Source: Colwellia psychrerythraea
Lineage (GTDB): Bacteria; Pseudomonadota; Gammaproteobacteria; Enterobacterales; Alteromonadaceae
Direction of reading: 5' to 3'
DNA length: 64,000 nucleotides
Assembly (NCBI GenBank): GCA_002163005.1
Contig: MAAF01000083.1
Span: 1-64,000, forward strand
Below are positions 9,844-28,520 of this stretch, piece by piece. The translations under genes and the position numbers were made by a program. Position 1 is the stretch's first letter; the number at the start of each line of letters is the position of its first letter. Below the pieces are notes generated by a model. It searched no databases, was not told where the DNA came from, and saw nothing but the letters and a program-made list of their open reading frames with translations.

Positions 9844-10689
9844 TTATCGATGAGAACGATGCATAAAAGCGAGCTTTTCAAACAAATGAACATCTTGCTC
9901 GTTTTTCAATAAAGCGCCATGTAAAGGCGGGATCACTTTTTTGGTGCGAGTTTCTTGTAAAACGCCAATATCGATATCTTCAGCTAAAAGTAACTTTAAC
10001 CAATCAATCAATTCAGAAGTTGAAGGCTTCTTTTTAAGACCCGGTATTTCGCGAAGATCAAAGAATAGTGCTAACGCTTCATCAAGCAGTTTTTGTTTGA
10101 TGTTAGGAAAATGCACATCAACAATCGCTTTCATTTCCTCTGCTTCAGGAAAACTAATGTAATGAAAGAAACAACGACGCAAAAAGGCATCAGGTAACTC
10201 CTTCTCATTATTTGAGGTAATAATAATTATAGGCCTTTGTTTAGCAACAATTTTTTCTTGAGTTTCATAAACAAAAAATTCCATTTTATCGAGCTCTAAT
10301 AACAGATCATTAGGGAACTCAATATCGGCCTTATCAATTTCATCAATTAATAAAACCGGTCTTTGATCAGCCGTAAAAGCATGCCACAGTTTTCCTTTTA
10401 CTATGTAATTACTAATATCATGCACTTTTTCATCGCCTAGCTGACTATCTCTAAGACGTGATACCGCATCATATTCATATAAGCCTTGTTGGGCTTTAGT
10501 GGTTGATTTGATATGCCAAGGAATTAACTCAGTCCCTAAACTCAACGCTAGCTCTTCGGCAAGCATAGTTTTTCCTGTCCCTGGCTCACCTTTAATTAGC
10601 AAAGGTCGTTCCAGCGTAATTGCCGCATTGACAGCAAGTTGCAGTGCTTTAGAGGCAATATAGTTACCCGTGCCATTAAATGATTTCAT
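9844..10689 (-). CDS. MoxR-type AAA ATPase
   Basis: This 281-aa AAA+ ATPase has Walker A GEPGTGKTMLAEEL near residue 36, Walker B LLIDEIDKAD near residue 113, and sensor ITSNNEKELPDAFLRRC. It is of the MoxR/CoxD type that works with a VWA partner, here encoded directly downstream in the same operon. GGGAAA precedes the ATG. The pair likely forms a hexameric ring with the VWA protein as substrate adaptor. Confidence 0.88.
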   Translation of the reverse strand: MKSFNGTGNYIASKALQLAVNAAITLERPLLIKGEPGTGKTMLAEELALSLGTELIPWHIKSTTKAQQGLYEYDAVSRLRDSQLGDEKVHDISNYIVKGKLWHAFTADQRPVLLIDEIDKADIEFPNDLLLELDKMEFFVYETQEKIVAKQRPIIIITSNNEKELPDAFLRRCFFHYISFPEAEEMKAIVDVHFPNIKQKLLDEALALFFDLREIPGLKKKPSTSELIDWLKLLLAEDIDIGVLQETRTKKVIPPLHGALLKNEQDVHLFEKLAFMHRSHR

Positions 10690-11051
10690 GTTTTTCCCAC
10701 TTATTGTTTACAAATTAAACTAAGATATTGATTAGATATGCCATTTTATTTAACTAAATAGAAAAATGGCACTTAATATCTTCATATGAGGCTAACTTTA
10801 ACCTGTTAGTAAAAATTTTCCACAGGATTTCAAAAATAGTTGAAATAACTAAGAAATATATACCGATAATACGATTACTAACAAACAGAAAAATAAACTA
10901 ACAATAATTAGATAGACTAGATCAAGAAATCTGTAACTAGTGGTTATATTTATAGTTTAAGCTATATACAATCGAGATAGATTAGAACTTGCTTAGGATG
11001 AGCAGTGTTCAATAAATGGAATTATTTATTGTTATAGTAGGAACGCTCAAT
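10690..11051. other. divergent intergenic region
   Basis: This 362-bp AT-rich gap separates the minus-strand MoxR gene from the plus-strand chemoreceptor and must carry both promoters. No convincing operator, RNA or small gene was seen in it. Confidence 0.4.
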
Positions 11052-12659
11052 ATGTTAAAAAACCTGTCACTAGCTAAAAAAATTCACCTAGCACTAACCT
11101 TAATTGGCGCTATTTTTTTAAGTACCACTATTTTCTTTTTTCATCATGATGAAAAAGAACTGGCAGAGCACTTTGTTGAACGAAATCTTGAAAGCCTTGC
11201 ACTTAATTATTTTGACTCTGTCAATACCATGATGCTCACAGGCACTATAGCTAATCGACAACTTATTCAAAATAAAATTCTCAGCCAAGACGATATCGTA
11301 GAAGCAAGAATTTTACGTACTCAAGCGGTTAATAAGGTTTTTGGTGAGGGCTTCTCTGATCAGAGTGCGAAAAGTGCATTTGAACGGGAAGGTCTAGCGG
11401 GTAAAAGAGCCTTTAAAAAATTCGAACTTGATGGAAAACGTATGATGAGCTTTATTATACCTGTCAAAGCGAGTTCAGATTATCGCGGCACCAACTGCTT
11501 AACTTGCCATCAAGTGAGTGAAAATGAAATATTAGGCGCAGTAAAACTTACCTATGACTTATCAACAGTAGATAAAGAAATCACCAGCTCTATTACCCAA
11601 GCTGCTATTTTGCAATTGGTCATTACCTTAATTTGTTTTACCTTGTTAAGCCTTACCCTGAAAAAACTAATTTTCTTCCGATTAAAACGCCTAAGCAACT
11701 CTATTACAACGGCTGCTGAAGAGCTCGATTTAAATAAAGAAATTAAAGTTCATTATCAAGATGAGCTTGGTGCAGTGAGCAGAGCGTTAAATGAGATGAT
11801 GAATAAGTTTAGAGTAAGCTTTATGTCAATAGCCCAAGCAAGTGAGCAGTTGACTGAATCAGCGAAAGAAGTTGATAAAATATCTTCGCTAACACTCGAC
11901 GCAGTTTTAGAGCAAAAAAAGGGTACCGACTCTGTCGCTGCTGCAATTAATGAGTTAGATGCTTCTGCGAATGAAGTCCAACATAATACGCAAAGTGCAG
12001 CCGATAAATCAGTTTCAGCTAATGAAAGGACCTCACAAGGATTAATTCTTGTTGAACAAGCTAGGCTTGGCATTAATGATCTCAGAGATAAAGTTGTTGA
12101 AAATACCGCTATGATCACCGACTTAAGTAATAAAACCAATGAAGTGGGCAGTGTGTTAGAAGTTATTACCGCCATTGCTGAACAAACAAATTTATTGGCG
12201 TTAAATGCTGCCATAGAAGCGGCAAGAGCCGGCGAACAAGGTAGAGGTTTTGCTGTGGTCGCCGATGAAGTTCGTTCATTAGCAACACGTACTCGTGAAT
12301 CAATTGAGCAAATACACACAACAATGAGCCGATTACAAGTCGGAGCAAAAGGTGCTGTTGATTCAATGAATGTGGTTAGTCAACAAGCCAGTGATAAAGC
12401 TGAAGATGTTGCCAATGTTGCTAATTTATTGACAAGTATCAGTGCTGAAATTCAGGAATTAGACGAACTAAATTGTCAAATTTCAGATGCTGCGACACAG
12501 CAGAATTTGGCAGCCGATGAAATTAATATTAATGTCGTTAATATAAGTAATGTTGCTGAACAATCAAGTGATGATGCTATTCGTGGTAAAGAGATTAGCG
12601 AGCATTTATTATCACTTGCTTATGAATTAAATACCCAGTTAACAAAGTTTAAATTATAA
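11052..12659 (+). CDS. methyl-accepting chemotaxis protein with periplasmic CxxCH motif
   Basis: This is a 535-aa chemoreceptor. Transmembrane helix 1 spans about residues 8-28, then a periplasmic domain to about 180, helix 2 (LVITLICFTLLSLTL), a HAMP region, and the signalling hairpin with the conserved [20 protein letters not shown] tip. The periplasmic domain carries C149-L-T-C-H153, a covalent c-type haem motif, just before the fold that ends ILGAVKLTYDL. This suggests a haem-bearing redox or gas sensor like those described in Geobacter. The start at 11052 was chosen over 11016 because TAGGAA lies about 10 nt before it and the family starts with the basic MLKNLSLAKK. Confidence 0.9.
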   Translation: MLKNLSLAKKIHLALTLIGAIFLSTTIFFFHHDEKELAEHFVERNLESLALNYFDSVNTMMLTGTIANRQLIQNKILSQDDIVEARILRTQAVNKVFGEGFSDQSAKSAFEREGLAGKRAFKKFELDGKRMMSFIIPVKASSDYRGTNCLTCHQVSENEILGAVKLTYDLSTVDKEITSSITQAAILQLVITLICFTLLSLTLKKLIFFRLKRLSNSITTAAEELDLNKEIKVHYQDELGAVSRALNEMMNKFRVSFMSIAQASEQLTESAKEVDKISSLTLDAVLEQKKGTDSVAAAINELDASANEVQHNTQSAADKSVSANERTSQGLILVEQARLGINDLRDKVVENTAMITDLSNKTNEVGSVLEVITAIAEQTNLLALNAAIEAARAGEQGRGFAVVADEVRSLATRTRESIEQIHTTMSRLQVGAKGAVDSMNVVSQQASDKAEDVANVANLLTSISAEIQELDELNCQISDAATQQNLAADEININVVNISNVAEQSSDDAIRGKEISEHLLSLAYELNTQLTKFKL

Positions 12660-14891: not shown

Positions 14892-15376
14892 AATCATTAT
14901 TCAATTTCACCAACAGTTCATGATAATTAATAGGGCCAAAAGGTCACTTTATTGAAATATGTCTTTTATTAGTACTGCTTCCCCCTAATACCCCTAGGTC
15001 TTTTGCGCCTCGAACAATGAAAGAGTGCTTGAGCAATTTCAATTCAAGGCGCTGTGATGAAATAATGGTTATTCCCTTATAAATCACAGCAACGATGAAG
15101 TGATGTTGCTCAAGCGCTTCTTCGATGGGTTTTAAATGACTTTATACGGCGTCAAATAATCAAAGCATAGAATAACTATGCTTAAATTATCTTCCTTGCC
15201 TAAAGTGATTTTAATTCCCACTGAAACCCTGCACTTTGAATGGTCACGGGTATAACACGCATCTTTATCGGTAAATAGTGTGTGAATCACACCTTTTTAA
15301 GGGATAATGCGCCATTGCACACTCAAAATTTTATTACATCCACTCTATTGAAGTGGTTCGAATAAACAGAGATATT
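14892..15376. other. intergenic gap containing a dispersed repeat
   Basis: There is no coding frame in this 485-bp gap. It contains a MITE-like element at 14987..15255 and then the promoter region of the ABC transporter operon. Confidence 0.5.
14987..15255. repeat. MITE-like element with TATACCC ends, copy A
   Basis: The right end reads GGGTATA and the left end AATACCC (degenerate). Internally it contains GAGTGCTTGAGCAATTTCAA, ATGGTTATTCCCTTA, TTGCTCAAGCGCTTCTT and CTTGCCTAAAG. These occur in the same order in copy B at 57627..57886. No coding capacity. It is a short non-autonomous mobile or REP-like element. Confidence 0.6.
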
Positions 15377-16243
15377 ATGACAACACTGACCAAACTACTC
15401 GCACTATGTGTGTTAACGCTAAGCCTCTTTGTCACTAGCAGCGCGATCTCGGCCACATTTACTTTTACCGCCATTCCCGATGCAGATGAGTCTCAGCTGA
15501 GAACCCGCTTCGAGAAGGTTGCCCTTTATTTGGAAAAGAAACTGGGCGTTGAGGTAAAATATGTTCCGGTTAAATCCTACTCAGCCGCGGTAACCGCCTT
15601 TAGAAATAACCAAGTGCAGCTAGCCTGGTTTGGTGGTTTATCTGGGGTGCAAGCCAGACGATTAGTTCCCGGCTCGCAAGCAATTGCACAAGGTTATGAA
15701 GATCAGTTTTTCAAAAGCTACTTTATTGCTCACTACAGCACTGGCTTAGAGATGAGCGATAGTTTTCCTGATATCACCGAGAAAACCTTCACCTTTGGTT
15801 CAAAAGGCTCCACCTCAGGTAGATTAATGCCGCAATATTATATAGAGCAATATTTAAAGCAAAAGCCACAACATGCATTTAAACGTGTTGGTTTTTCTGG
15901 TGACCATAACCGCACTATTGTTCAAGTTCAATCAGGGACTTACCAAGTTGGCGCTGTGAACTATAAAGTGTGGGAAAGTGCCCTAGCCGCAGGTAAAATC
16001 GACACTAATAAAGTGAAGGTGATTTGGAAAAGTCCTACCTACCCTGATTACCAATGGACAATACATTCAGATGTTGAAGCCAATTTTGGTCCAGGCTTTG
16101 CTGATAAAGTTAAAGCTGCACTGCTCAATATGGATAGCCCAGAGCTGTTAAACAGTTTTCCACGTTCCTCCTTTGTCAACGCTGAAAATAAAGATTTTCA
16201 GCCAGTGGAAGATGTGGCTAAACAGATAGGACTTATCGATTAA
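15377..16243 (+). CDS. phnD: PhnD-family ABC transporter substrate-binding protein
   Basis: This is a 288-aa periplasmic binding protein. The signal peptide (LLALCVLTLSLFVTSSAISA) is followed by the type II fold of the phosphate/phosphite/phosphonate group. The motifs AWFGGLSGVQARRLVPGS, FGSKGSTSGRLMP and GFSGDHNRTIVQVQSG are those of a subgroup that databases call putative selenate-binding proteins, so phosphonate is not certain. The start at 15377 (MTTLTK) is preferred over an upstream GTG because it gives a standard signal peptide. Its stop overlaps the ATPase start (TAATG). Confidence 0.85.
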   Translation: MTTLTKLLALCVLTLSLFVTSSAISATFTFTAIPDADESQLRTRFEKVALYLEKKLGVEVKYVPVKSYSAAVTAFRNNQVQLAWFGGLSGVQARRLVPGSQAIAQGYEDQFFKSYFIAHYSTGLEMSDSFPDITEKTFTFGSKGSTSGRLMPQYYIEQYLKQKPQHAFKRVGFSGDHNRTIVQVQSGTYQVGAVNYKVWESALAAGKIDTNKVKVIWKSPTYPDYQWTIHSDVEANFGPGFADKVKAALLNMDSPELLNSFPRSSFVNAENKDFQPVEDVAKQIGLID

Positions 16244-16953
16244 TGATCATCATTGACAACCTAAATCTTCATTATGATAAAACTGCCGGCTATAATACCT
16301 GTAAGAAAACCGGTAAAAAAGAGACGTCTACTCAGGTGATTTTTGATCTGAGCCTGACCATCAATGAAGGTGAAAAAGTTGCTATTATCGGTCCCTCTGG
16401 TGCAGGTAAATCTAGCCTGCTACACCATATTTATCAACAGTTACAAACCAGTGCGGCCCTGTGCTCACAGCGACAAGGCTTGGTTGATAATTTAAGCATC
16501 TATCACAATATATTTATGGGTGCATTAGCTCGCCATCACTGGTTATTTAACTTAGTTAATTTAATTAGGCCTTTCAAACAAGATTTACACGATATTGCAG
16601 CACTGTGTCAGCAGTTGGAGTTAGACCAACCACTGGCAAAAAAAGTGGACCAACTCTCTGGTGGGCAAAGGCAACGAGTGGTGTTAGCAAGAGCCCTATA
16701 TCAACAACAAGATACCTTTATCGGTGATGAGCCCTTTTCAGCGCTTGATCCCTTAATGAAATCAAGACTACTCGACACCGTATTAGCGCGGCATAAAAGT
16801 GTCATCATGGTGGTTCATGACAGAGAGTTAGCAATTACCGCTTTTGACCGCGTTATCGCATTAGATAAAGGCCGTTTGGTACTCGATAGCCAACAGCAGA
16901 GTATTGATCAACAACAGATCACCGCGCTATATCAAACTAACGCTGTCGCGTAG
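16243..16953 (+). CDS. phnC: PhnC-type ABC transporter ATPase
   Basis: This 236-aa ATPase has Walker A G50-PSGAGKS57, the Q-loop near SQRQGLVDNLS, signature LSGGQRQRVVLARAL, Walker B FIGDEPFSALDP and H-loop VVHDRE. It powers the importer made of the adjacent binding protein and permease. Translation is coupled to the upstream gene by a one-base overlap. The N-terminal TAGYNTCKKTGKKETST segment is a small insertion compared with most PhnC proteins. Confidence 0.88.
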   Translation: MIIIDNLNLHYDKTAGYNTCKKTGKKETSTQVIFDLSLTINEGEKVAIIGPSGAGKSSLLHHIYQQLQTSAALCSQRQGLVDNLSIYHNIFMGALARHHWLFNLVNLIRPFKQDLHDIAALCQQLELDQPLAKKVDQLSGGQRQRVVLARALYQQQDTFIGDEPFSALDPLMKSRLLDTVLARHKSVIMVVHDRELAITAFDRVIALDKGRLVLDSQQQSIDQQQITALYQTNAVA

Positions 16954-16962
16954 GCCTCTTTA

Positions 16963-18489
16963 ATGTCGCAACTGCAGCAAGTGAAAAGCTCACATTATTC
17001 TTTATGTTACTGGCAAATAGGTTATTGGCAAAAAATCACGTTATCAATCTGGTTGATTGCACTGGTTATTATCCCTTTTGCCGATATAGAGATTGTCAGT
17101 TTCGACCCTTTCCTCGAGTTAACTCGCATGGTAAATGGGCTAGTAACACCCGATTTTTTCGCGACTGAATACCTGTTACAAGCCATCCTTCAAACCGTTA
17201 ACTTTGCCATTATAGGCGTCTGTTTAGGCCTAGTACTAGGTGCTCCCCTCGCGCTAATTTACCAAAACCCAATCGTATCAAGCTGTTGCGCTTTTTTGCG
17301 TGCGATCCATGAAATTTTCTGGGCGCTGCTATTTTTACAAGTCTTTGGTCTGTCTCCCATAACCGGAATATTGGCTATCGCGATCCCGTTTGCCGCCACT
17401 TTTGCCCGCGTGTTTCACGATATTATCAATCAATCGTCAGACAGCCCTTTAGAAAGTATCGATAGTCGGGCCGATATAATTAGCCGTTTCACTTATGGCA
17501 AAATAGCCCAAGTCATGCCACAGCTGATGAGCTACACTCGCTACCGTTTTGAGTGTGCCCTTCGCAGTAGCGCCGTACTCGGGTTTATCGGCATGCCAAC
17601 GTTAGGTTTTTATATGGAAACGGCTTTTAAACAGGGAAACTATAGTGAAGGGGCAGCGTTATTGATAATATTTATTGCCCTTATCGGCTCGATTCGTTAC
17701 TGGTGTCCACCCAAATTACTTGGGATTTATCTTGTTATTGCTTGCGTGACTCTCGTTGATATTCCTAACGTAGATAGCAACCTACTGGTGCGTTTTATCA
17801 GCCAAGATATTTTGCCTCCCGCGTTAGTAAACGTCGCAACGTTGGCAGAGATTCAATGGTCATCACTCACTACTTGGTTTAGCACTATCCTGTCGGAACA
17901 AGCCATTCCAGGAGCAATAGCAACGATTACCTTAGCGCTACTTGCCTTAGCTGCCACCCATTTTATTACGTTAAGCACCCATGCTGTCGCTAGTAAGCAC
18001 TTATGCCCTGCACCACTGACTTGGCTTGGGCGATTCATCTTGTTAATAGGCCGTTCAGTACCTGAATATATATTAGCGTTTATTTTTTTAATGCTGCTCG
18101 GCCCATCGATGTTACCTGCGGTTATCGCGTTAGCCATTCATAATGGCTGCGTTATTGCTTACTTAGCTGTTAAGCAAAGTAATACTATTACTCCGCAACA
18201 GATGCAGATGACTAGGTTAAATCAGTTTAACTACCACATCATGCCAACTATCTATCCCAATATGATGGCTTTAATGTTTTATCGCTTTGAAATCATAGTG
18301 CGAGAAACCGCGGTGTTTGGCATTTTGGGGATTATGACCTTAGGGTTTTATATCGACAGTAATTTCAGCGAAATACGCTATAGTAATGCATTAGTGCTTA
18401 TCACGTGTACAGCCCTGCTCAATGTCGTCATTGATATTATCTCAAGACGACTGCTTAAGTTCCCGCAAACGAGTAAAACTCGCTGTTAA
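16963..18489 (+). CDS. phnE: PhnE-type ABC permease, tandem fusion
   Basis: This 508-aa protein is about twice the usual PhnE length and contains two permease domains in tandem (about residues 60-255 and 300-500). Each has a BPD_transp_1 EAA-type loop: RSSAVLGFIGMPTLGFYMET in the first half and ETAVFGILGIMTLGFYIDS in the second. One fused polypeptide thus replaces the PhnE homodimer. It follows the ATPase by 9 nt and completes the importer. The substrate is unproven (phosphonate, phosphite or selenate-like oxyanion). Confidence 0.85.
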   Translation: MSQLQQVKSSHYSLCYWQIGYWQKITLSIWLIALVIIPFADIEIVSFDPFLELTRMVNGLVTPDFFATEYLLQAILQTVNFAIIGVCLGLVLGAPLALIYQNPIVSSCCAFLRAIHEIFWALLFLQVFGLSPITGILAIAIPFAATFARVFHDIINQSSDSPLESIDSRADIISRFTYGKIAQVMPQLMSYTRYRFECALRSSAVLGFIGMPTLGFYMETAFKQGNYSEGAALLIIFIALIGSIRYWCPPKLLGIYLVIACVTLVDIPNVDSNLLVRFISQDILPPALVNVATLAEIQWSSLTTWFSTILSEQAIPGAIATITLALLALAATHFITLSTHAVASKHLCPAPLTWLGRFILLIGRSVPEYILAFIFLMLLGPSMLPAVIALAIHNGCVIAYLAVKQSNTITPQQMQMTRLNQFNYHIMPTIYPNMMALMFYRFEIIVRETAVFGILGIMTLGFYIDSNFSEIRYSNALVLITCTALLNVVIDIISRRLLKFPQTSKTRC

Positions 18490-19902: not shown

Positions 19903-19930
19903 TTGCAATACCTTACCTATGACATATAAT
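19903..19930 (+). promoter_or_regulatory. promoter of the haem-uptake operon
   Basis: A perfect -10 TATAAT (19925..19930) lies 16 bp after a -35-like TTGCAA (19903..19908). The predicted start of transcription is about 30 bp before the receptor ATG. Confidence 0.55.
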
Positions 19931-19960
19931 ACGAATCAATCTCATTTAGGTTCGTATTAT
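19926..19960. promoter_or_regulatory. operator-like inverted repeat overlapping the -10
   Basis: ATAATACGAA (19926..19935) and TTCGTATTAT (19951..19960) form a perfect 10-bp inverted repeat with 15-bp spacing. It overlaps the -10 element and the start site, as expected for a repressor operator. The AT-rich middle (TCAATCTCATTT) resembles a Fur box only poorly, so iron control is a guess. Confidence 0.55.
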
Positions 19961-19965
19961 TAAAG

Positions 19966-21924
19966 ATGTATACAAAAGATTATCTTTCTACCCTGATATT
20001 AGCTTTAGCTATTTTTACCTCAGCAAAAGCCTCATCGGATCCAACAGATAAAGAACACATAGTTGTTACCGGAACTCGTACCGCGAAACTATTAAGTGAT
20101 TCTCCAGTATTAGTGGATGTTATTGACGGTGAAACTATTGCCAAAATCAGTCAAGGCACCTTAGCTCAAGCGCTAAACTATATTCCCGGTATTGTGGTAA
20201 AACGCAGTGTTAAAGATGGCTACAATATACAAATGCAAGGGTTCGGGGGCGACCATGTGCTAATACTAATTGACGGTCAGCCAATTATAAGCCCCACTGG
20301 TTCATCAGCAGATTTAGACCAAATACCTGCCAATAATATTGCCCAAATAGAGGTTATCCGTGGTGCAGCATCAGTCATGTATGGAAGCTCAGCTATGGGC
20401 GGTGTTATTAACATTATTACCCAAAAAACGGACGGCTCCGCGCTTAAACTTGATTACGATGTTAGCCAATATCAAGGTAACACTATTAATGATGGTGACC
20501 TTAATCACACCTTTAAAATACATGCGGTTGAAAGCTTTTCAGACTGGCGCACTCAGCTGAATGCATTGCTAATCGATGATCAAGGGTATGATTATGATAG
20601 CACTACGGTTAGTCAAGACGCCGCAAGCGTCGAAAAAAAATTCATTACCTTAAGTACCAGTAAAGAGCATGAAACCCTTGAAACTACTATAAAATATCAA
20701 TGGCTAAGTGATAAAAAGCTTCGTGATAGCTCAACAATCCCTGGACAGAGTGAGGTTATCTATTACCAAACCGACGTTGATCAACAACAAATAGATCTGG
20801 GGTTAAAGAGCACTGATAATCCCAAAGCTCCTTGGCAAGTTAATGCCAGATACATTAATCATCAAGAAACCAGCGGTCAGTCCAATAGTTTACGTGATAC
20901 CAACATTATCTTATCAGAAATTAATGGCCAAAAAATCTTTCAATTAAACAGTATTGAACTAGTCACTGGCGGGGTTGTTCACGCTGACAAACTTAATCAA
21001 AATAAGCCTGGATCAAATATTATTGAAATTGATAATGAAAGCAGTGAAAGCATTGAAGCCTTTATCCAAGGTAATTGGATAAAGGCCGATTATCAAGTGT
21101 TAGCAGGCATGCGCAGTCAATATGATTCAGACTTTGGTTGGCATAATGCATTAAGCCTTAGCGGCATGAAAAATTTTACTCTGGGTAAAGGGAAATTACA
21201 GTGGCGTGCCGGAATTGGTCAAAGCTACCGAGTACCTAATTTAAAAGAGCGCTTTTATGTTTTTGACCACAGCGCACTCGGATATATGGTTTTAGGCAAT
21301 AAAGACCTTAAGCCTGAAACCGCAGATTCATTTAATTCGAGCTTAACCTTTGATACCACACTTGCTGAAAATTCTGTCGACCTGCGCAGTGATATCAGTG
21401 TGCATTATACCAAAACTAAAGACTTAATTGATTCAGTCATTGATCCAGAGAAGTCAGCTGAAACAGGCTTAACCATTTATCAATATCAAAACATTAGCGA
21501 AGCAAAAATATCCGGTGTTGATATTAGTACGGAATTGACGTTCAAGCATTGGAAAACACAATTAAATTATAGCTACTTAACCAGTGAAGATGAAAACAAT
21601 GAGCGCTTACTTTCTCGTCCACGCCATCAAGTAAAATTCAACATTACTTACGATATTGATATTTATGATATGCAGCTGATTGCCTATGCGGTTTATCAAG
21701 CTGGAGAAGCTGTACCTGATAGTTATCAAGGTATTGAAAACAACGCTTACACCACAGTTAATGCAGTATTAAACCAAGTATTAACTGAAAACCTATCGTG
21801 GCGTATGAGTGTCGACAATATTTTTGACGAACATAAAAGCCCTTCAGCCAATAGCGAAAATTTATTTGATGCAAGGCCTGTTAGTAGCCGCACCATCAGT
21901 GCTGGCATTAGTTACCAATTTTAA
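19966..21924 (+). CDS. hmuR: TonB-dependent haem/porphyrin receptor (HmuR-like)
   Basis: This is a 652-aa outer-membrane receptor. The signal peptide (about residues 1-22) is followed by a TonB-box-like EHIVVTGTR, a plug domain (DSPVLVDVIDGETIAKISQG to SSAMGGVINIITQ) and a 22-strand-type barrel ending GISYQF. The length suits the small haem and vitamin B12 class of receptors. The call as HmuR rests on its operon: a HmuY-like lipoprotein, ExbB-like and DUF2149 proteins and a CobN-like chelatase follow on the same strand. It would bring haem or a related tetrapyrrole into the periplasm. The next gene starts 19 nt after the stop. Confidence 0.85.
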   Translation: MYTKDYLSTLILALAIFTSAKASSDPTDKEHIVVTGTRTAKLLSDSPVLVDVIDGETIAKISQGTLAQALNYIPGIVVKRSVKDGYNIQMQGFGGDHVLILIDGQPIISPTGSSADLDQIPANNIAQIEVIRGAASVMYGSSAMGGVINIITQKTDGSALKLDYDVSQYQGNTINDGDLNHTFKIHAVESFSDWRTQLNALLIDDQGYDYDSTTVSQDAASVEKKFITLSTSKEHETLETTIKYQWLSDKKLRDSSTIPGQSEVIYYQTDVDQQQIDLGLKSTDNPKAPWQVNARYINHQETSGQSNSLRDTNIILSEINGQKIFQLNSIELVTGGVVHADKLNQNKPGSNIIEIDNESSESIEAFIQGNWIKADYQVLAGMRSQYDSDFGWHNALSLSGMKNFTLGKGKLQWRAGIGQSYRVPNLKERFYVFDHSALGYMVLGNKDLKPETADSFNSSLTFDTTLAENSVDLRSDISVHYTKTKDLIDSVIDPEKSAETGLTIYQYQNISEAKISGVDISTELTFKHWKTQLNYSYLTSEDENNERLLSRPRHQVKFNITYDIDIYDMQLIAYAVYQAGEAVPDSYQGIENNAYTTVNAVLNQVLTENLSWRMSVDNIFDEHKSPSANSENLFDARPVSSRTISAGISYQF

Positions 21925-21943
21925 GATAATCTCGGAGAACAAC

Positions 21944-23107
21944 ATGAAAGTAAATACAAGTTTTTATAATAATTTTAAATTAAGCAGCTTAGCACTTTGC
22001 GTTTTATTAACCGCCTGTGGCGGTAGTAGCTCAAATGATGATACTGCACCAGACCCAGAACTAAAACCAGCCCCTTCGGCACCTGTACAAGGGGGTATTA
22101 GCGGACCACATAGTACCGGCAGTGTTAGTGAGCCAGTGTTTGTTTATTATGATTTAGATAACAAAACGGTTGTCGAATTAACAACGGAGCAAGCCGAAAC
22201 GAATACCGTTTGGGATATTGCTTTTAAACGCAGCGGTGTTTACTTAAATCAACACAGCGATAATGCCGTTAAAGCATACTCTACTGCTACTAATAGTGAC
22301 TTTTTCGATGCCGATGGCAAAGCGATTGCAGCAAGTTTTATTGCCGCAACAGCTGAAACTGAACTGGATGATTATTTAGCGATAAAAACCAGTGATATTC
22401 CTGCTGATGAAACCAAGTTTGTTGGCGATGTGACTTCAAATATTATTGAAGGATTTTACGACTATAACTCAACGACTCATGTTGTTACCGCAGCGGAGAC
22501 TAAGTACTTTATCGCCAACTCAGATGATGCGTTTACTAAATTTAGAGCGACAAACATCATTACAGCGGGTCGAGGTATTGGACAAATAACCTTAAAGACG
22601 GCTTATCAAGGTAGTTCTGACGTAGCATTTTCCGCAGAACAAGATCTTGTTATCGATGCAGCATTAACCTGTTCAGGTGATGTAACTCACGTTTACATTG
22701 ATTTTGATACTAATCAAGAAGTAACCATGACTGATGCTTGGGATATAAACCTCCCTTGTGCGGCCGATAAAACGGGTGCTGATTTTACCATCAACATTAC
22801 TGATGACGCTCAAGCTATGCATGATTTTGATAACAAATACGATGCTATCGATCCAACCGCTGTTGCTTACTATGGTTTACAAAAAAATAGTTACAGTGTT
22901 AAAGCCTTCGAGAGCACCCCTTGGTACCAATACGGCTTAAATGGTGGACACTTATTATGGTCGCAATTTGATGTTTATTTAATCAAAACCTCAACTAAAA
23001 CTCATAAACTACAACTCACTAGCTATTATAACGCTGACGGTTCTTCTGGCTATATCAGTTTCAGAGCAGACGAAGTTAATGAACTTGCTGGTGTCACTGG
23101 AAATTAA
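21944..23107 (+). CDS. hmuY: HmuY-like haem-binding lipoprotein, duplicated domain
   Basis: This is a 387-aa lipoprotein with lipobox L-T-A-C25 and a low-complexity linker to about residue 60. Two HmuY-like repeats follow. Repeat 1 runs about 62-240 (VFVYYDLDNKTVVEL, VWDIAF, GQITLKTAYQGSS). Repeat 2 runs about 246-380 (THVYIDFDTNQEVTM, AWDINL, KTHKLQLTSYYN, SSGYISFR). Porphyromonas HmuY is about 216 aa with a single domain, so this version is double. HmuY binds haem at the cell surface and passes it to HmuR. The start was chosen because GGAG lies before MKVN. The open frame reaches back into hmuR but lacks a signal peptide there. Confidence 0.82.
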   Translation: MKVNTSFYNNFKLSSLALCVLLTACGGSSSNDDTAPDPELKPAPSAPVQGGISGPHSTGSVSEPVFVYYDLDNKTVVELTTEQAETNTVWDIAFKRSGVYLNQHSDNAVKAYSTATNSDFFDADGKAIAASFIAATAETELDDYLAIKTSDIPADETKFVGDVTSNIIEGFYDYNSTTHVVTAAETKYFIANSDDAFTKFRATNIITAGRGIGQITLKTAYQGSSDVAFSAEQDLVIDAALTCSGDVTHVYIDFDTNQEVTMTDAWDINLPCAADKTGADFTINITDDAQAMHDFDNKYDAIDPTAVAYYGLQKNSYSVKAFESTPWYQYGLNGGHLLWSQFDVYLIKTSTKTHKLQLTSYYNADGSSGYISFRADEVNELAGVTGN

Positions 23108-23143
23108 TCGAAAGATATAATACCAATCAGTATAAGCTTCATA

Positions 23144-23172
23144 CTCAAGGTGCGTTTCCCTTGCGCCTTGAG
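23144..23172 (+). promoter_or_regulatory. intra-operon hairpin between hmuY and hmuU
   Basis: CTCAAGG (23144..23150) and CCTTGAG (23166..23172) pair around a GC-rich loop in the 116-bp gap. It is preceded by a smaller AGTAT/ATACT hairpin. It may protect the 3' end of the receptor-lipoprotein message or damp expression of the downstream genes. Confidence 0.4.
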
Positions 23173-23223
23173 TCCCTGTTTCGTCCCCCATCACTTATAA
23201 GTAGAACCTTCTAGGAAAATATT

Positions 23224-23832
23224 ATGATCTCCCAGATCGAACAAATCATGTACCAGATGTCAGACCTTTTTATGGCCCCCGTACTGTGTCTAATAGCGCT
23301 ACTATTTATTTATTCTTTATTTGCTACCGGGCAATTTTTTACACAAACAATGCAACGTCGACGTCACTATAAATCCTTTATACAATTACTGAACGGCAAG
23401 TTAGGCAGTAGCAGTGAATTAATATTGAACGGTTATCCAATAGCAAGCCTAGCCAATGAAATGCCTAATATAAGTCAAGACCAGCTTGATGTTGCGGCAT
23501 TAAAAGAACTTGAAGGCGTTCGTAATGTTAGTCGACTTGCCCCCATGTTAGGTCTTATCGCTACCATGATCCCCATGGGACCGGCACTAAAAAGCTTAGC
23601 TGACGGGAATATACAAGGTATCAGTGAAAATCTTATCGTCGCATTTTCTGCTGTTATTTTTGGTTTAGTGATCGCCTCAATCACTTTTTGGATTGCCTCG
23701 GTTAAAAAGCGCTGGATGGTTGAAGAGCTAGTAGCATTGATGCCGTTAATCACCAATAAACCTCACTTAACTTCTACTCAAGAAACAACCTTACCTGTGC
23801 AAGCAGTGGAGAAAGATTATGAGGCTGCTTGA
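23224..23832 (+). CDS. hmuU: MotA/TolQ/ExbB-family protein (HmuU-like)
   Basis: This 202-aa inner-membrane protein has three hydrophobic segments (about residues 18-40, 100-118, 135-158). The ExbB/TolQ core is LEGVRNVSRLAPMLGLIATM and NLIVAFSAVIFGLVIASITF. It is the proton-channel partner type that drives TonB-like energy transfer. In the Bacteroidetes hmu operon the matching gene is hmuU. Its last 14 bases overlap the DUF2149 gene, so the two products are likely made in fixed ratio and form one complex. Confidence 0.85.
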   Translation: MISQIEQIMYQMSDLFMAPVLCLIALLFIYSLFATGQFFTQTMQRRRHYKSFIQLLNGKLGSSSELILNGYPIASLANEMPNISQDQLDVAALKELEGVRNVSRLAPMLGLIATMIPMGPALKSLADGNIQGISENLIVAFSAVIFGLVIASITFWIASVKKRWMVEELVALMPLITNKPHLTSTQETTLPVQAVEKDYEAA

Positions 23833-24124
23833 TGAAGATGAAGGCATTAATCCAGCATTGTCTGTCGTCAACTTAGTTGATGTGTTTTTAGTACTTATTG
23901 CTGCTTTATTAATTGCCATAGCACAAAACCCTTTAAACCCCTTCCTTGCCGAAGATGTCACTGTCATTAAAAATGCTGGTAAAGATAATATGGAAATTAT
24001 TGTTAAAAAAGGCAATACCATCGAAAGCTTTAAAAGTGACGGAAAAACAGGGGCAGGAACAGGTAAAAAAGCGGGTACTGCCTATGAAATGGCAGACGGC
24101 AGCATGATTTACGTAAAAGAGTAG
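23819..24124 (+). CDS. hmuV: DUF2149 protein (HmuV-like, ExbD-like topology)
   Basis: This 101-aa protein starts MRLLDEDEGINPALSVVNLV, the DUF2149 signature, with one transmembrane helix (about residues 19-37) and a short periplasmic tail. Asp21 lies at the start of the helix like the essential Asp of ExbD and TolR, so it may be the ExbD-like partner of the upstream protein. In Bacteroidetes hmuV occupies this place. The ATG lies inside the end of hmuU and the chelatase gene starts 13 nt after the stop. Confidence 0.82.
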   Translation: MRLLDEDEGINPALSVVNLVDVFLVLIAALLIAIAQNPLNPFLAEDVTVIKNAGKDNMEIIVKKGNTIESFKSDGKTGAGTGKKAGTAYEMADGSMIYVKE

Positions 24125-24137
24125 CGATATTAACCAC

Positions 24138-27100
24138 ATGAAAAATACTTTAATGAAAATTTCCATATTATTATTCAGCATCATTGCGCTTATCAGCAAT
24201 GTTTTTGCTGCCTCGACAACTACCGAAATAGTACCTACCCCAACAAAAAACACACAAAACGTACTATTTGTCAGTACCGCTCATACCAACACGGCTAAGA
24301 TCACACTATTAAAAAAAGTTGCCGATAAAAAAACAAATACAAGCTGGCACATAGCCCAAAAATCATCAAAATCCTTATTAGAAAAAACGAATCAAACCGG
24401 CGCACTTACCACACTTTTTAATCAATATGACTTAGTCATACTTGATGCAGTATCCGTAAGAGAAGCCAGTGCTGCGTTTGATAATTACGCCAGTGAAATA
24501 ACTAAAGTAAATACGACTGTCGTTGCCTTCAACTATTTAAACAATGAAAAGCTCAATAAAGGTTTAAGTACCGATACTGCTAGTACTTTACAAGATTATT
24601 GGGTAAATGCCGGACGCCGAAACCTAGACAACATGTTGTCGTATATCTCAGTAAACTTTGTTAAAACCAAGCTTAAAAACTCAGAGGCACAAGCCATAAC
24701 CAAAGTACCTGCACCAATTATTTTTCCTCAACAAGGTATTTATCACCCTAGCCTGCCAAACTTAATCGTTAACGACTTAGTAGCATATAAAAAGCTACGC
24801 CAAGTAAAACCTCAGCAAGCTAAAATTGCAGTATTGCTGCAACGAGCACTAATTGAGTCTGAACAAACACAGTTAATTGATGCGACTATTGCACAACTGG
24901 AAGCAAAAGGCGTCTACGTTGTGCCATTCTTTTTTGAGCTAAGTCCAGTAAGTGGTGATTATAGCCATTTGCTACAATTACCTAAAGCTGGTGAGAAAAG
25001 CGATGAAAATAGCCATGACAAATCAACTACAATGCAAACAGATGTCGACCTGATTATCAGCTTTCGCAATATTCATTGGGCTAATCAACGTAAAGTTGAA
25101 TTTGAAAAATTTAATGTACCGGTAATGCATGCCATGACTTATTACTCTGGCGATAAAAAAGCGTGGGAAAATGACATACAAGGGATCAGTGCAAATATGA
25201 TGTCCTTCACTTTGGTCTTGCCAGAAAATGCTGGTGTTATTGATCCTATGATTGTTGCCGCGATGAATATGAGTGACCAAAATGTTGAAGTTATCGACTA
25301 CCAACTAGAGCATTTAGTAAATAAAGCGATTAATGTCGTTAACTTAAAATACAAAGCCAACCAAGATAAAAAATTAACTGTATTTGTTTGGGGCGACAAA
25401 GATGTTGGTGCATCATTTATGAATATTCCTGAAAGTATCGAAGCCATTAGTCAACGTCTAGCTAATGAAGGTTATAATACCGCGGAGCGAGACGCTGAAT
25501 ACCTAATTGCTAACGCAAAAAAAATTCTAGATCCTTTCTATCGCGATTATCAATTAACCGAATTATTAGACAATGACTTAGCAGAGCTGATGCCTATTGA
25601 TGAGTATCTGACTTGGTTTAATACTTTACCTGCTGAGCTAACGCAAAAAATAAATGATCATTGGGGCAAACCTCAAGATAACTTTATGGCAGTAGAAAAA
25701 GACGGTAAGGACTTTTTTATTCTGCCTCGTATTCGTAATGGCAATATGCTAATTATGCGTCAACCCCCTCGTTCTGATAGCAAAAATGACGAAAACATGA
25801 TTTATCATCAAGGCCTAGTTCCCATTAACCATTTCTACCTTGCTGCATATTTTTATGCTCGTGAGTACTGGCAATCAGACGCCATTGTTCACTTGGGCAC
25901 ACATGGCTCTCAAGAGTATTTAGGCGGTAAAGAGCGTGGTTTATCAATTTACGACCAAGGTAACTTAGCAGTTTGGGATACCCCCATCGTTTACCCTTTT
26001 ATTGTCGATGATGTTGGTGAAGCAATGCAAACCAAACGACGCGGACGTGCAACGGTTATTTCACATATGACCCCTCCTTTTGCTGCCGCAGGTTTAGAAG
26101 GTGAAATACGCAATTTACACGAATTGATGCATCAATATAAACAGCTTGATCAAGGTGGCGTAAAGCAAAAAACCGCCACACAACTTGCCAAATTATGTTT
26201 CGAGACCAACATCTGTAAAGATCTCGGTTGGGAACAGGCACGCATTGACCAAGAGTTCGATAAATTTATTGATGCGCTTCATATTCATTTAGAAGCATTA
26301 GCAACAGCAAATCAGCCATTGGGTTTACATACTTTTGGTCACATTCCTGAGCAACCACTCACCATATCGACCTTAGTACAAATGTTAGGAAATGACTTTA
26401 CTCAACGTGCAAGTGAATTCGAGCATGAGCATTACAGAGATAGTTTAGTCAGTGAAAAACAAGATGATGAAGAGGGTGATGAAAGTATTGCTCATAGCCA
26501 TACTTATCATGAAAAGAGCCATGAAAATAACCATGATAAAGCTCCGGAAAAAGATAAAACCACTGGCTCTGAAAAACCACAAGAAAATGATATTACGCGT
26601 TTATCGGGTTATTTAACCATTAAAAACTATATAATTAGCGCTGCGGATCAATCAGTCAAACGTCCTGTGCCATTAGCTGAACTCTCTGAATCGTTACAAG
26701 CCGATATCGAACGCGGTAAAAAGCTTTATAAGAGCATGGCTGACATCCATGAACTCGATGCCATGGTAGATTTTCTTAGCGCAAAATATATCCCGGTTAA
26801 ATCTGGTGGGGATCCAATACGTCACCCTGAATCGTTATCAACAGGCTATAACTTATTTGGTTTTAATCCTTCTCGTGTTCCTACTAAAGCGGCCTTTGAG
26901 CAAGGTAAAGAGCTTACCGAAGAAATGATTGCAAACTACTACCAAAAACATCAAAGCTACCCTGACAAAATGGCATTTTCATTATGGTCAATTGAAACGA
27001 TGCGTCACTATGGGGTTCTTGAATCACAAGTATTATACGCCATGGGCGTTAAACCAAAATGGAGTAAAAGTGGTCGGGTTATTGGCACCGAAATTATTCC

Positions 27101-28457
27101 ATACAGTGAATTAAAACGCCCACGTGTTGATGTCGTTATATCAGCAACCGGTTTGTATCGCGATGCATTTCCAAATGTGATGCAGATGTTGGCAAAAGCA
27201 GTCAATCAAGTCGCCACTTTAAAAGAAGACAACAACTCTATTTGGAAAAATAGCCAAAAAGTTAAAGCTGAGCTATTAGCTGAAGGTGTAGAAGAGAAGG
27301 AAGCAGAATATTTATCGACTATTCGTCTTTTTTCGAATCAATCAGGCGATTATGGTACAGGGGTTGATGATGCCGCATGGGCTAGTGATACTTGGGAAAC
27401 GGATAAAAAAATATCGGATACTTACCTGGGTAAAATGGGCTACTTCTTTGGTGCAGACAATACGCGTTGGGGACAAAAAGCAGCGAATAATCAAGGTAAA
27501 GAAGTACAACTTTATGCCAAACAGTTGTCAGGCACAGATATTGCCATGTTTGCCCGCTCTTCAAACCTGTTTGGTATGTTAAGTTCAGACGACCCTTTTG
27601 AGTATTTCGGCTCATTAAGTTTAGCAGTGCGCAATATTGATGGCAAAAGCCCTGATATGGTGGTCGCTAATTTGCGTGATGCTAAAAATTCGAAAGCCGA
27701 AGATGCAGGTTTATTTCTTGCCAAAGAATTACGCACCCGTATGTTTCATCCTCGTTGGATAAAAGAGTTACAAAAAGAAGGTTACTCTGGTGCGGTATCA
27801 TTAGCGTCGAAAATGGATAACTTTTTCGGTTGGCAGGTAGTTGCCCCTAATTTGATCAGGAACGATCAATGGGACGAGTACATGGATATTTATGTTAATG
27901 ACAAATTAGCGCTAGAGCTTGATGAATGGTTCAAAAAAATTAATCCCGCCGCCTTTGCTCGTATGATGGAGAGAATGCTCGAAGCTGAACGTAAAGATTA
28001 TTGGCAAGCTGACTCTGAGCGATTAAAACAACTTGTTGAGCAATATATTGATGTGGTGAATAACAATGACTTAGTCATTCTAAATGATGCGGTAAAAGCC
28101 CATGTTAATGAACTTGCCCAAGGCTTTGGTTTAGCGCCACTGGTGGCAAAAACTATGGAAGCCATGGCAGCAAACGCTAAAGCACAACAAGAAATGAATA
28201 ATCAACAACTTGCTGAGCAACAAAGTCAATCTTCTAGCCAGACAGAAAACGCTGAACAAAAAGTTGAAGGGCAAAAATTAGAAAAACAAACCACACAAAA
28301 AATGGCACTTGATAATGCTATTTACTACAGCTTAGCGGGTATTTTGTTACTAATAATATGTGGCGCTATTTGGCAAACAAGGGGCAAAAAGTTAAAAACC
28401 CAGCAAATATATTTACTGGAATTAAATAGCTCAAAACCACAAGATTTAGCAGCTTAA
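24138..28457 (+). CDS. hmuS: CobN/Mg-chelatase-like haem chelatase (HmuS-like)
   Basis: This 1439-aa protein is of the CobN/BchH large chelatase subunit superfamily, with the hallmark HLGTHGSQEYLGGKERGLS near residue 585. Unlike cytoplasmic CobN it has an N-terminal signal peptide (MKNTLMKISILLFSIIALIS) and a C-terminal transmembrane helix (about 1396-1415) with a short basic tail, so the chelatase body should lie in the periplasm. A low-complexity insert rich in His and charged residues lies near 775-815. HmuS of Bacteroidetes has been linked to removal of iron from haem. No CobS/CobT or BchI/D partners are encoded nearby, so energy probably comes from the ExbB/DUF2149 pair. Confidence 0.85.
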   Translation: MKNTLMKISILLFSIIALISNVFAASTTTEIVPTPTKNTQNVLFVSTAHTNTAKITLLKKVADKKTNTSWHIAQKSSKSLLEKTNQTGALTTLFNQYDLVILDAVSVREASAAFDNYASEITKVNTTVVAFNYLNNEKLNKGLSTDTASTLQDYWVNAGRRNLDNMLSYISVNFVKTKLKNSEAQAITKVPAPIIFPQQGIYHPSLPNLIVNDLVAYKKLRQVKPQQAKIAVLLQRALIESEQTQLIDATIAQLEAKGVYVVPFFFELSPVSGDYSHLLQLPKAGEKSDENSHDKSTTMQTDVDLIISFRNIHWANQRKVEFEKFNVPVMHAMTYYSGDKKAWENDIQGISANMMSFTLVLPENAGVIDPMIVAAMNMSDQNVEVIDYQLEHLVNKAINVVNLKYKANQDKKLTVFVWGDKDVGASFMNIPESIEAISQRLANEGYNTAERDAEYLIANAKKILDPFYRDYQLTELLDNDLAELMPIDEYLTWFNTLPAELTQKINDHWGKPQDNFMAVEKDGKDFFILPRIRNGNMLIMRQPPRSDSKNDENMIYHQGLVPINHFYLAAYFYAREYWQSDAIVHLGTHGSQEYLGGKERGLSIYDQGNLAVWDTPIVYPFIVDDVGEAMQTKRRGRATVISHMTPPFAAAGLEGEIRNLHELMHQYKQLDQGGVKQKTATQLAKLCFETNICKDLGWEQARIDQEFDKFIDALHIHLEALATANQPLGLHTFGHIPEQPLTISTLVQMLGNDFTQRASEFEHEHYRDSLVSEKQDDEEGDESIAHSHTYHEKSHENNHDKAPEKDKTTGSEKPQENDITRLSGYLTIKNYIISAADQSVKRPVPLAELSESLQADIERGKKLYKSMADIHELDAMVDFLSAKYIPVKSGGDPIRHPESLSTGYNLFGFNPSRVPTKAAFEQGKELTEEMIANYYQKHQSYPDKMAFSLWSIETMRHYGVLESQVLYAMGVKPKWSKSGRVIGTEIIPYSELKRPRVDVVISATGLYRDAFPNVMQMLAKAVNQVATLKEDNNSIWKNSQKVKAELLAEGVEEKEAEYLSTIRLFSNQSGDYGTGVDDAAWASDTWETDKKISDTYLGKMGYFFGADNTRWGQKAANNQGKEVQLYAKQLSGTDIAMFARSSNLFGMLSSDDPFEYFGSLSLAVRNIDGKSPDMVVANLRDAKNSKAEDAGLFLAKELRTRMFHPRWIKELQKEGYSGAVSLASKMDNFFGWQVVAPNLIRNDQWDEYMDIYVNDKLALELDEWFKKINPAAFARMMERMLEAERKDYWQADSERLKQLVEQYIDVVNNNDLVILNDAVKAHVNELAQGFGLAPLVAKTMEAMAANAKAQQEMNNQQLAEQQSQSSSQTENAEQKVEGQKLEKQTTQKMALDNAIYYSLAGILLLIICGAIWQTRGKKLKTQQIYLLELNSSKPQDLAA

Positions 28458-28483
28458 TTATATACTTAGCTATAAACCGAATG

Positions 28484-28520
28484 AAATAGGTTACTTATAT
28501 TTAAGTAATCTATTTTAGCA
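28484..28520 (+). terminator. terminator of the haem operon
   Basis: AAATAGGTTACTTA (28484..28497) and TAAGTAATCTATTT (28502..28515) form a 14-bp stem with one G:U pair and a TATT loop, 26 bp after the chelatase stop. Confidence 0.6.

Follow-up and report, generated by a model that had tools for sequence, protein, structure and literature searches.

This work describes five adjacent genes in a 64,000-nucleotide stretch of Colwellia psychrerythraea DNA (contig MAAF01000083.1; the window, at its full length, in what follows), which on sequence grounds form a real and recurrent Hmu-like operon outside the Bacteroidota, with a divergent chelatase. Our reading, to which we give a probability of about 0.47, is that the operon is induced by iron starvation and acquires iron from haem, and that the ExbB-like and DUF2149 proteins encoded in it are a dedicated proton motor of the chelatase. 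According to the available part of PMC12583661 (EMBO J 2025), the demonstration of anaerobic iron removal from haem is recent and comes from gut Bacteroides, and the available part of PMC10100974 describes the complete six-gene hmu operon as confined to Bacteroidetes. Our literature search found no report of a gammaproteobacterial hmu operon, and no paper proposing the ExbB-like/DUF2149 pair as the motor of a chelatase.

The five open reading frames occupy one strand between 19966 and 28457, in the order R-Y-U-V-S, and are preceded by a putative regulatory site:

19966..21924, + strand: TonB-dependent outer-membrane receptor, at the HmuR position, 652 amino acids (aa) (Pfam plug 7.9e-26, barrel 5.9e-30)
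21944..23107, + strand: HmuY-family lipoprotein, 387 aa (Pfam PF14064 7.7e-11; lipobox LTAC)
23224..23832, + strand: ExbB/TolQ-like protein, at the HmuU position, 202 aa (Pfam MotA_ExbB PF01618 8.1e-9)
23819..24124, + strand: DUF2149 protein, at the HmuV position, 101 aa (Pfam 2.7e-28)
24138..28457, + strand: HmuS-like class I chelatase, 1439 aa (Pfam CobN-Mg_chel PF02514 3.2e-285)
19928..19946, + strand: Fur-box-like site, 19 bases 5' of the first ATG, within a 9-bp perfect inverted repeat

All five proteins score above their Pfam cut-offs, which bears out the gene order given in a preliminary description of this DNA. The ExbB-like and DUF2149 frames share 14 bases, a gap of 13 bases leads from the latter to the chelatase, and no extra frame of at least 80 aa was found on the same strand between the five genes. 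The same order is found in five further loci of the window's class or order (L028, L029, L030, L210 and L212, the chelatase being cut or short in two of them; class and order are throughout those of the window's genome), and this recurrence argues that the arrangement is not due to chance. The arms of the inverted repeat lie at 19927-19935 and 19951-19959, and the site within the repeat is the sole match in the 64 kb, with three mismatches allowed, to AATGAKAATNATTMTCATT, which we take to be the Fur-box consensus.

The operon shares with the hmuYRSTUV operons of B. thetaiotaomicron and P. gingivalis, in one transcriptional arrangement, HmuY, a receptor, an anchored CobN-like chelatase, an ExbB-like and a DUF2149 protein. 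The genes of P. gingivalis and P. intermedia run HmuY, receptor, CobN-like HmuS, hypothetical HmuT, ExbB-like HmuU and DUF2149 HmuV, HmuT being a further membrane protein, as far as the available parts of PMC10434189 and PMC13227078 go. The window differs in its gene order, in a host outside the Bacteroidota, in a chelatase without three HmuS signatures, and in HmuT, of which no match was found between 15001 and 31000 with a hidden Markov model built from two Bacteroidota HmuT proteins, a model of short reach that recovered among the loci its two sources only and missed a third Bacteroidota candidate (L056); the three HmuT candidates have no significant Pfam family. Calling the operon complete, as was done in the preliminary description, is therefore too much, whilst its view of a Hmu-type operon of receptor, hemophore and exported, membrane-anchored chelatase agrees with the Pfam families and with hydropathy.

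The lipoprotein, read from the ATG at 21944, scores 42.8 bits with PF14064 against a curated cut-off of 27, and its profile matches the PDB entries 8b6a (3.9e-13) and HmuY 3h8t (9e-4), so that its earlier assignment to the HmuY family stands. Its lipobox ends at Cys25 and Pfam places two HmuY-like stretches in it (22133-22540 and 22691-23065); an internal duplication was tried, and lobe against lobe gave a weak hhalign alignment (E 0.008, probability 5%). A single-sequence AlphaFold (AF2) model reached a predicted local distance difference test value (pLDDT) of 34.

The chelatase finds HmuS (9d26) as its top match in PDB, at 427 bits, followed by ChlH (335) and CobN (308). It belongs to a proteobacterial clade with Pseudoalteromonas, Diaphorobacter and Azospirillum (Shimodaira-Hasegawa-like approximate likelihood-ratio test, SH-aLRT, 100) and shares with Bacteroidota HmuS the membrane-anchored half of the superfamily tree, whereas the AAA+-type CobN and BchH rows all stand on one side of a single branch (98, 99 and 100). 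These trees, of 55, 73 and 29 rows, come from a quick search with SH-aLRT as their only support; the 73-row tree drops eight of the 55 rows and adds 26 of the 77 loci of the wider scan described below, many rows differ in amino-acid composition, and there are two long branches. In approximately unbiased (AU) tests, made on a hand-picked 29-row subset with groups named only after the first tree had been viewed, joining the window's clade to AAA+-type CobN is rejected (p = 2e-5), joining it to the riboswitch-linked CobN2 is also rejected (p = 0.02), and joining it to Bacteroidota HmuS is neither supported nor rejected (p = 0.19). The chelatase hence does not cluster with AAA+-type CobN, in agreement with the preliminary description. 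Hydropathy peaks at 2.23 in its first 70 aa and at 2.13 in its last 110 aa, by a simple scan rather than a topology predictor, and a signal sequence, a C-terminal transmembrane anchor and a periplasmic body are predicted from this.

In the numbering of PMC12583661, His538 of the HFG(T/A)HG motif is kept (window VHLGTHG, His589), as it is in all 55 aligned rows and thus superfamily-wide, and so are Glu577 (Glu628), Ser1014 (Ser951), Ser1199 and Glu1212 (Glu1155). At the propionate-side Ser951, the three CobN/BchH rows shown have Gly instead. Substituted residues are Ser1067 (Thr), Gln1198 (Ser) and Trp1202 (Phe). The column of the haem ligand His254 holds Asn311, and two residues further comes His313, which is conserved in the window and its four nearest rows, L035, L028, L029 and L048.

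The DUF2149 protein consists of one transmembrane helix with Asp21, followed by a small domain of about 60 residues. Asp is found at that column in 68 of 69 aligned DUF2149 proteins, and the AF2 model, of overall mean 63, has a helix at 12-36 that is confident at residues 11-30 (block means 85 and 95), with lower confidence elsewhere. Alignment with ExbD is limited to 24 columns of the transmembrane segment (E 0.026, probability 2%), where Asp21 falls opposite the transmembrane Asp of ExbD. ExbB/ExbD, TolQ/TolR and MotA/MotB are proton motors of one kind, and the ExbB-like protein with DUF2149 looks like a minimal motor of that kind.

What ties this pair to the chelatase is its company in other genomes. 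Of the 369 class genomes, 21 contain a DUF2149 match, which in 20 is over the cut-off; of the 295 order genomes 16 do, with 14 over it. The two sets overlap in part and both include the window's genome, and all 35 places over the cut-off were read (two in the window's genome, 19 further in the class and 14 further in the order). Every one of the 35 has an ExbB-like gene no more than 1 kb, and a CobN-superfamily gene no more than 5 kb, away from DUF2149. Judged by their phmmer and DUF2149 scores, 18 of these places are HmuS-like (one of them, L031, cut) and 17 CobN2-like; HmuY is present in six, each time in the gene order of the window. HmuY itself occurs in 14 of the 369 class genomes, at the chelatase in four (the window's own, G075, G197 and G201) and away from DUF2149 places in ten; six of these ten were examined, and no DUF2149 or CobN was found in the stretches around their HmuY-receptor loci (G025 has two HmuY places, one of which is included). 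Among sub-cutoff matches, that of G294 (E 9e-4; L047) has no chelatase in its stretch, and those of G428 and G385 stand outside the places examined. Eleven plasmid records matched DUF2149, and all ten clear ones have CobN within 4 kb; the match of a Paracoccus plasmid (E 2e-4, 56% cover), with no CobN annotated nearby, was judged spurious.

Chelatases without DUF2149 keep different partners. The CobN family is present in 41 of the 369 class genomes, of which 20 have DUF2149 over the cut-off and 21 do not. A strong match of the ChlD/ChlI type (TIGR02442, E at most 1.2e-83, scored by the gap in E values since only one of the 41 genomes passes the model's own cut-off) occurs in 20 of the 21 soluble-chelatase genomes and in none of the 20 of the DUF2149 type (Fisher 8e-11), the single miss being a genome 58% complete. 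Twenty soluble-chelatase loci, from 19 of the 21 genomes, contain no ExbB-like or DUF2149 gene, and 11 of them contain AAA+ genes. C-terminal hydropathy reaches 1.37 or more in all 18 DUF2149-partnered chelatases of the class survey that are 800 aa or longer, and does not exceed 0.92 in any of the 20 soluble ones (the chelatase of L075 is cut at its C-terminus in this comparison).

A wider contig scan took the best 80 of 417 relatives and gave 77 loci; its query was an alignment of DUF2149-partnered enzymes, so that partner counts are biased towards them. Taking all the mapped chelatases of 800 aa or more together and requiring 5 kb to either side, those that have the C-terminal segment are accompanied by DUF2149 in 36 cases, by AAA+ in one and by neither in two, and those lacking it by AAA+ in 13, DUF2149 in one and neither in seven. 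With shorter flanks, the figures are 40 with DUF2149, three with ExbB-like only and 27 with neither where the segment is present, and four with AAA+, one with DUF2149 and nine with neither where it is absent. In Odoribacter (L102) and Dysgonomonas (L120), chelatases near receptors have neither the C-terminal segment nor, within about 6.9 kb, the pair; they nest among anchored forms, and a joint loss of anchor and pair is possible. Tandem arrays of at least two CobN-like genes per contig, mostly anchored, were seen in L139, L140, L141, L144, L145, L147 and L149, all from metagenome-assembled genomes labelled Deltaproteobacteria. In many loci a DUF2162 predicted transporter adjoins the pair (e.g., L052 5897-6595), at the place of Bacteroidota HmuT, and is a candidate permease for released metal.

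Put together, the operon would be induced when iron is scarce, and the HmuY-like lipoprotein would capture haem (a metalloporphyrin), which the receptor would import by drawing on the general TonB-ExbB-ExbD system of the cell, whose genes are assumed to lie elsewhere. The HmuS-like protein, tethered in the periplasm by a C-terminal transmembrane helix, would bind haem at the cleft of the conserved His589 and release ferrous iron from it, to be taken in by a FeoB-type protein (a FeoB_N frame of 734 aa lies elsewhere in the genome than the operon). Protons would pass at Asp21 of DUF2149 and the resulting motion would be transmitted to the chelatase, the pair filling the place that the cytoplasmic AAA+ subunits (ChlID or CobST) have in soluble chelatases. 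We infer that the pair drives the chelatase because it follows the anchored enzyme even without a receptor near, and because it is absent where HmuY and its receptor stand alone. The preliminary description had also suggested that the pair powers the chelatase; gene neighbourhoods support this, unlike the published schemes for HmuU/HmuV as far as their available text goes.

Several observations weigh against this reading, some of them touching the motor and others the substrate. As to the former, the DUF2149 profile found no match to ExbD or TolR in PDB. With the identity limit set at 30%, 1,318 species have HmuT, HmuU and HmuV but no detected HmuS, according to the available part of PMC10100974, and recombinant HmuS makes protoporphyrin IX from haem in an NADH-dependent reaction for which that of PMC12583661 does not mention the pair as needed. 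Anchored chelatases without the pair include Cupriavidus L061 (AAA+ at 4.6 kb), L140 and the archaeal L160, as well as the 27 counted above, with a flank below 5 kb on one side; conversely, L142 and L147 have the pair without a C-terminal segment. CobT is found in five of the 41 CobN genomes, two of which (the window's own and G143) are of the DUF2149 type, and the window's genome has a CobS/CobT pair away from its CobN genes, so that the exclusivity of AAA+ and DUF2149 is not absolute. That AAA+/VWA pair lies at 3356-6101 of L168 (G000:C18), with no CobN match on the contig and with a neighbour that is presumably aldehyde dehydrogenase-like.

The pair could instead be a variant of ExbB/ExbD that energises the receptor with a TonB from elsewhere, the chelatase needing no motor, which is how HmuU/HmuV of B. 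thetaiotaomicron are described in the available parts of PMC10100974 and PMC12583661. The MotA_ExbB match of the ExbB-like protein and the activity of HmuS in vitro are consistent with this, and in 24 of the 35 places, including 17 of the 18 HmuS-like ones (the 18th being the cut L031), the cluster has a receptor no more than 6 kb away, so that HmuS-like neighbourhoods alone cannot separate receptor from chelatase. Eleven places, however, have no receptor within 6 kb; four of them are cut short, and seven, all CobN2-like, were read over 4.3 kb or more on each side, a receptor lying at 6.6 and 8.7 kb in two of them. DUF2149 is absent from the six HmuY-receptor loci without chelatase, and classical ExbD shares 14 of 81 loci bearing DUF2149, from which it follows that two motors can coexist. 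Among six archaeal contigs, moreover, that of a Methanosarcinales (L157) carries an anchored chelatase, a DUF2162-like and an ExbB-like gene up to the contig end, and no outer membrane is expected in Methanosarcinales; in control searches, the genome of Methanosarcina acetivorans held both DUF2149 and CobN. In the ANME-2 contig L160, 7 kb of downstream sequence contains no such pair, and the other four, which are short, have no pair. On this balance, a motor for the receptor seems to us unlikely, though far from negligible.

If the pair is indeed the motor of the chelatase, there may be two energised kinds of class I tetrapyrrole chelatase, a generalisation that we offer tentatively and hold somewhat short of even odds. 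One would be cytoplasmic and AAA+-driven (ChlHID, CobNST), sharing with the window's enzyme the family of the large subunit and the catalytic His, yet having no C-terminal hydrophobic segment, AAA+ partners and no ExbB/DUF2149 in any of the 20 loci. The other would be exported, anchored and driven by protons through the ExbB-like/DUF2149 pair, comprising the window operon, Bacteroidota Hmu, the riboswitch-linked CobN2 clusters and archaeal relatives, and acting on scavenged rather than home-made tetrapyrroles. The cobN-exbB-like-DUF2149 cluster of plasmid pSZ77 of Trichlorobacter (Geobacter) lovleyi has the same receptor, ExbB-like, DUF2149 and anchored chelatase, with no CobS/CobT reported in the available part of PMC3403914; it differs from the window by adding DUF2162 and its own TonB-ExbB-ExbD, by its corrinoid context and by having no HmuY.

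As to the substrate, three published marks of HmuS fail in the window, and the strict HmuS identity given earlier is not supported. His1209 of LSLDHxxEFMGG, which the available part of PMC12583661 gives as a proposed axial ligand, is replaced by Asp1152 (window LSSDDPFEYFGS), a CobN-like state, whilst clade members L033, L034 and L050 retain His. The haem ligand Met79 is aligned to Val105, in the weak alignment of the N-domain; HmuY-linked Aureibacter L056 has Arg at that column. The Met-rich insertion of domain IV is absent, replaced by a His/acid-rich one of 158 aa (3 Met, 9 His and 30 Asp/Glu); for comparison, L035 has 2 Met and 15 His in 128 aa, Prevotella 35 Met in 382 and B. finegoldii 9 Met in 167. 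Together with its separate clade, these features set the enzyme apart from 9d26, and it is by its sequence HmuS-like rather than HmuS proper, although it may well work like HmuS. The receptor's best NCBIfam models, TonB-hemin (170 bits) and TonB-B12 (165 bits), score almost equally and both under their cut-offs, so its substrate is not settled by sequence. Finally, a Fur-like match arises by chance, at least one being found in 30 of 100 shuffles of the 64 kb (mean 0.39), which makes the box at the promoter weak evidence taken alone.

The operon might thus handle a metallo-tetrapyrrole or metal other than haem (a corrinoid, or a Ni, Co or Zn chelate), for which Asp1152 and the ambiguous receptor would leave room and to which relatives in cobalamin and hydrogenase/nickel clusters lend some colour. 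The latter is a Runella plasmid (L055 5443-13839), where a receptor, UreH/NicO-like, ExbB-like, DUF2149 and anchored chelatase genes stand amid hypB, hypF, hypC, hypD and hypE, which suggests a nickel-related chelatase of the same kind. Haem iron is nevertheless favoured by the HmuY-family partner, the Fur-like site, the FeoB_N frame and the absence of a cobalamin riboswitch, none being found in the window (where an Rfam scan gave four tRNAs only) or in eight HmuS-like loci, as opposed to five of the seven CobN2 loci searched, out of 17. One of these five belongs to the window's own genome (L005 7050-12572, G000:C78), where a second membrane-anchored CobN has ExbB-like and DUF2149-like companions like those of the operon, and a riboswitch and a distinct clade of its own. 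Such a separate riboswitch-linked enzyme, and the AU rejection at p 0.02 of a joint group with CobN2 (a group named after the tree was viewed), speak against a substrate other than haem, which we regard as unlikely. Still less can be said for a cobaltochelatase CobN of B12 synthesis misread as HmuS, which is very improbable given the AU rejection at 2e-5, a TIGR02442 match of only 1.7e-10 in a genome that does have a CobS/CobT pair elsewhere, no cob genes in the operon and no CbiC/CobH found in this genome (94% complete), even though the best NCBIfam model of the chelatase bears the CobN name (1172 bits, under its cut-off of 1248).

CbiC/CobH is required for corrin ring synthesis, and it was not found in nine of 12 genomes with a cluster of the L005 type, the window's own included, so that the CobN of such clusters may act on imported corrinoids; the neighbours of the L005 CobN are presumably cobB, cobO, cobC and cobD. 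Near other HmuS-like genes, an imelysin gene lies about 8 kb away from the chelatase of L035, the nearest relative, and L033 has at 10221-11615 a membrane protein of the ferredoxin type (Fer4_5), a possible electron donor for haem reduction.

Upstream of the operon, at 15353-18489, lies an ABC importer of PhnD-PhnC-PhnE-like proteins, of phosphonate/selenate families; its binding protein scores above the cut-off of TIGR04553 (a putative selenate family), and a glutathione-dependent disulfide oxidoreductase comes next. The preliminary description had seen neither a HmuT-like gene nor an ABC importer, of which the former was not found here either, with the model of short reach, and the latter does lie upstream; its wording also mixed in the unrelated names of Yersinia hmuTUV, HmuU and HmuV of Bacteroidota being the ExbB-like and DUF2149 proteins. 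A HmuTUV system of the Yersinia type was dropped as a reading. A recently acquired island was likewise considered and dropped, GC being 0.34-0.41 over the window and about 0.39 in the operon.

A related operon outside the Bacteroidota widens the range of haem iron removal and singles out the HmuS residues that are not universal, and its host may offer a test bed that makes its own haem. If the pair does drive the chelatase, the energising of an enzyme in the ATP-free periplasm, and with it the roles of HmuU and HmuV, would become testable by one point mutation.

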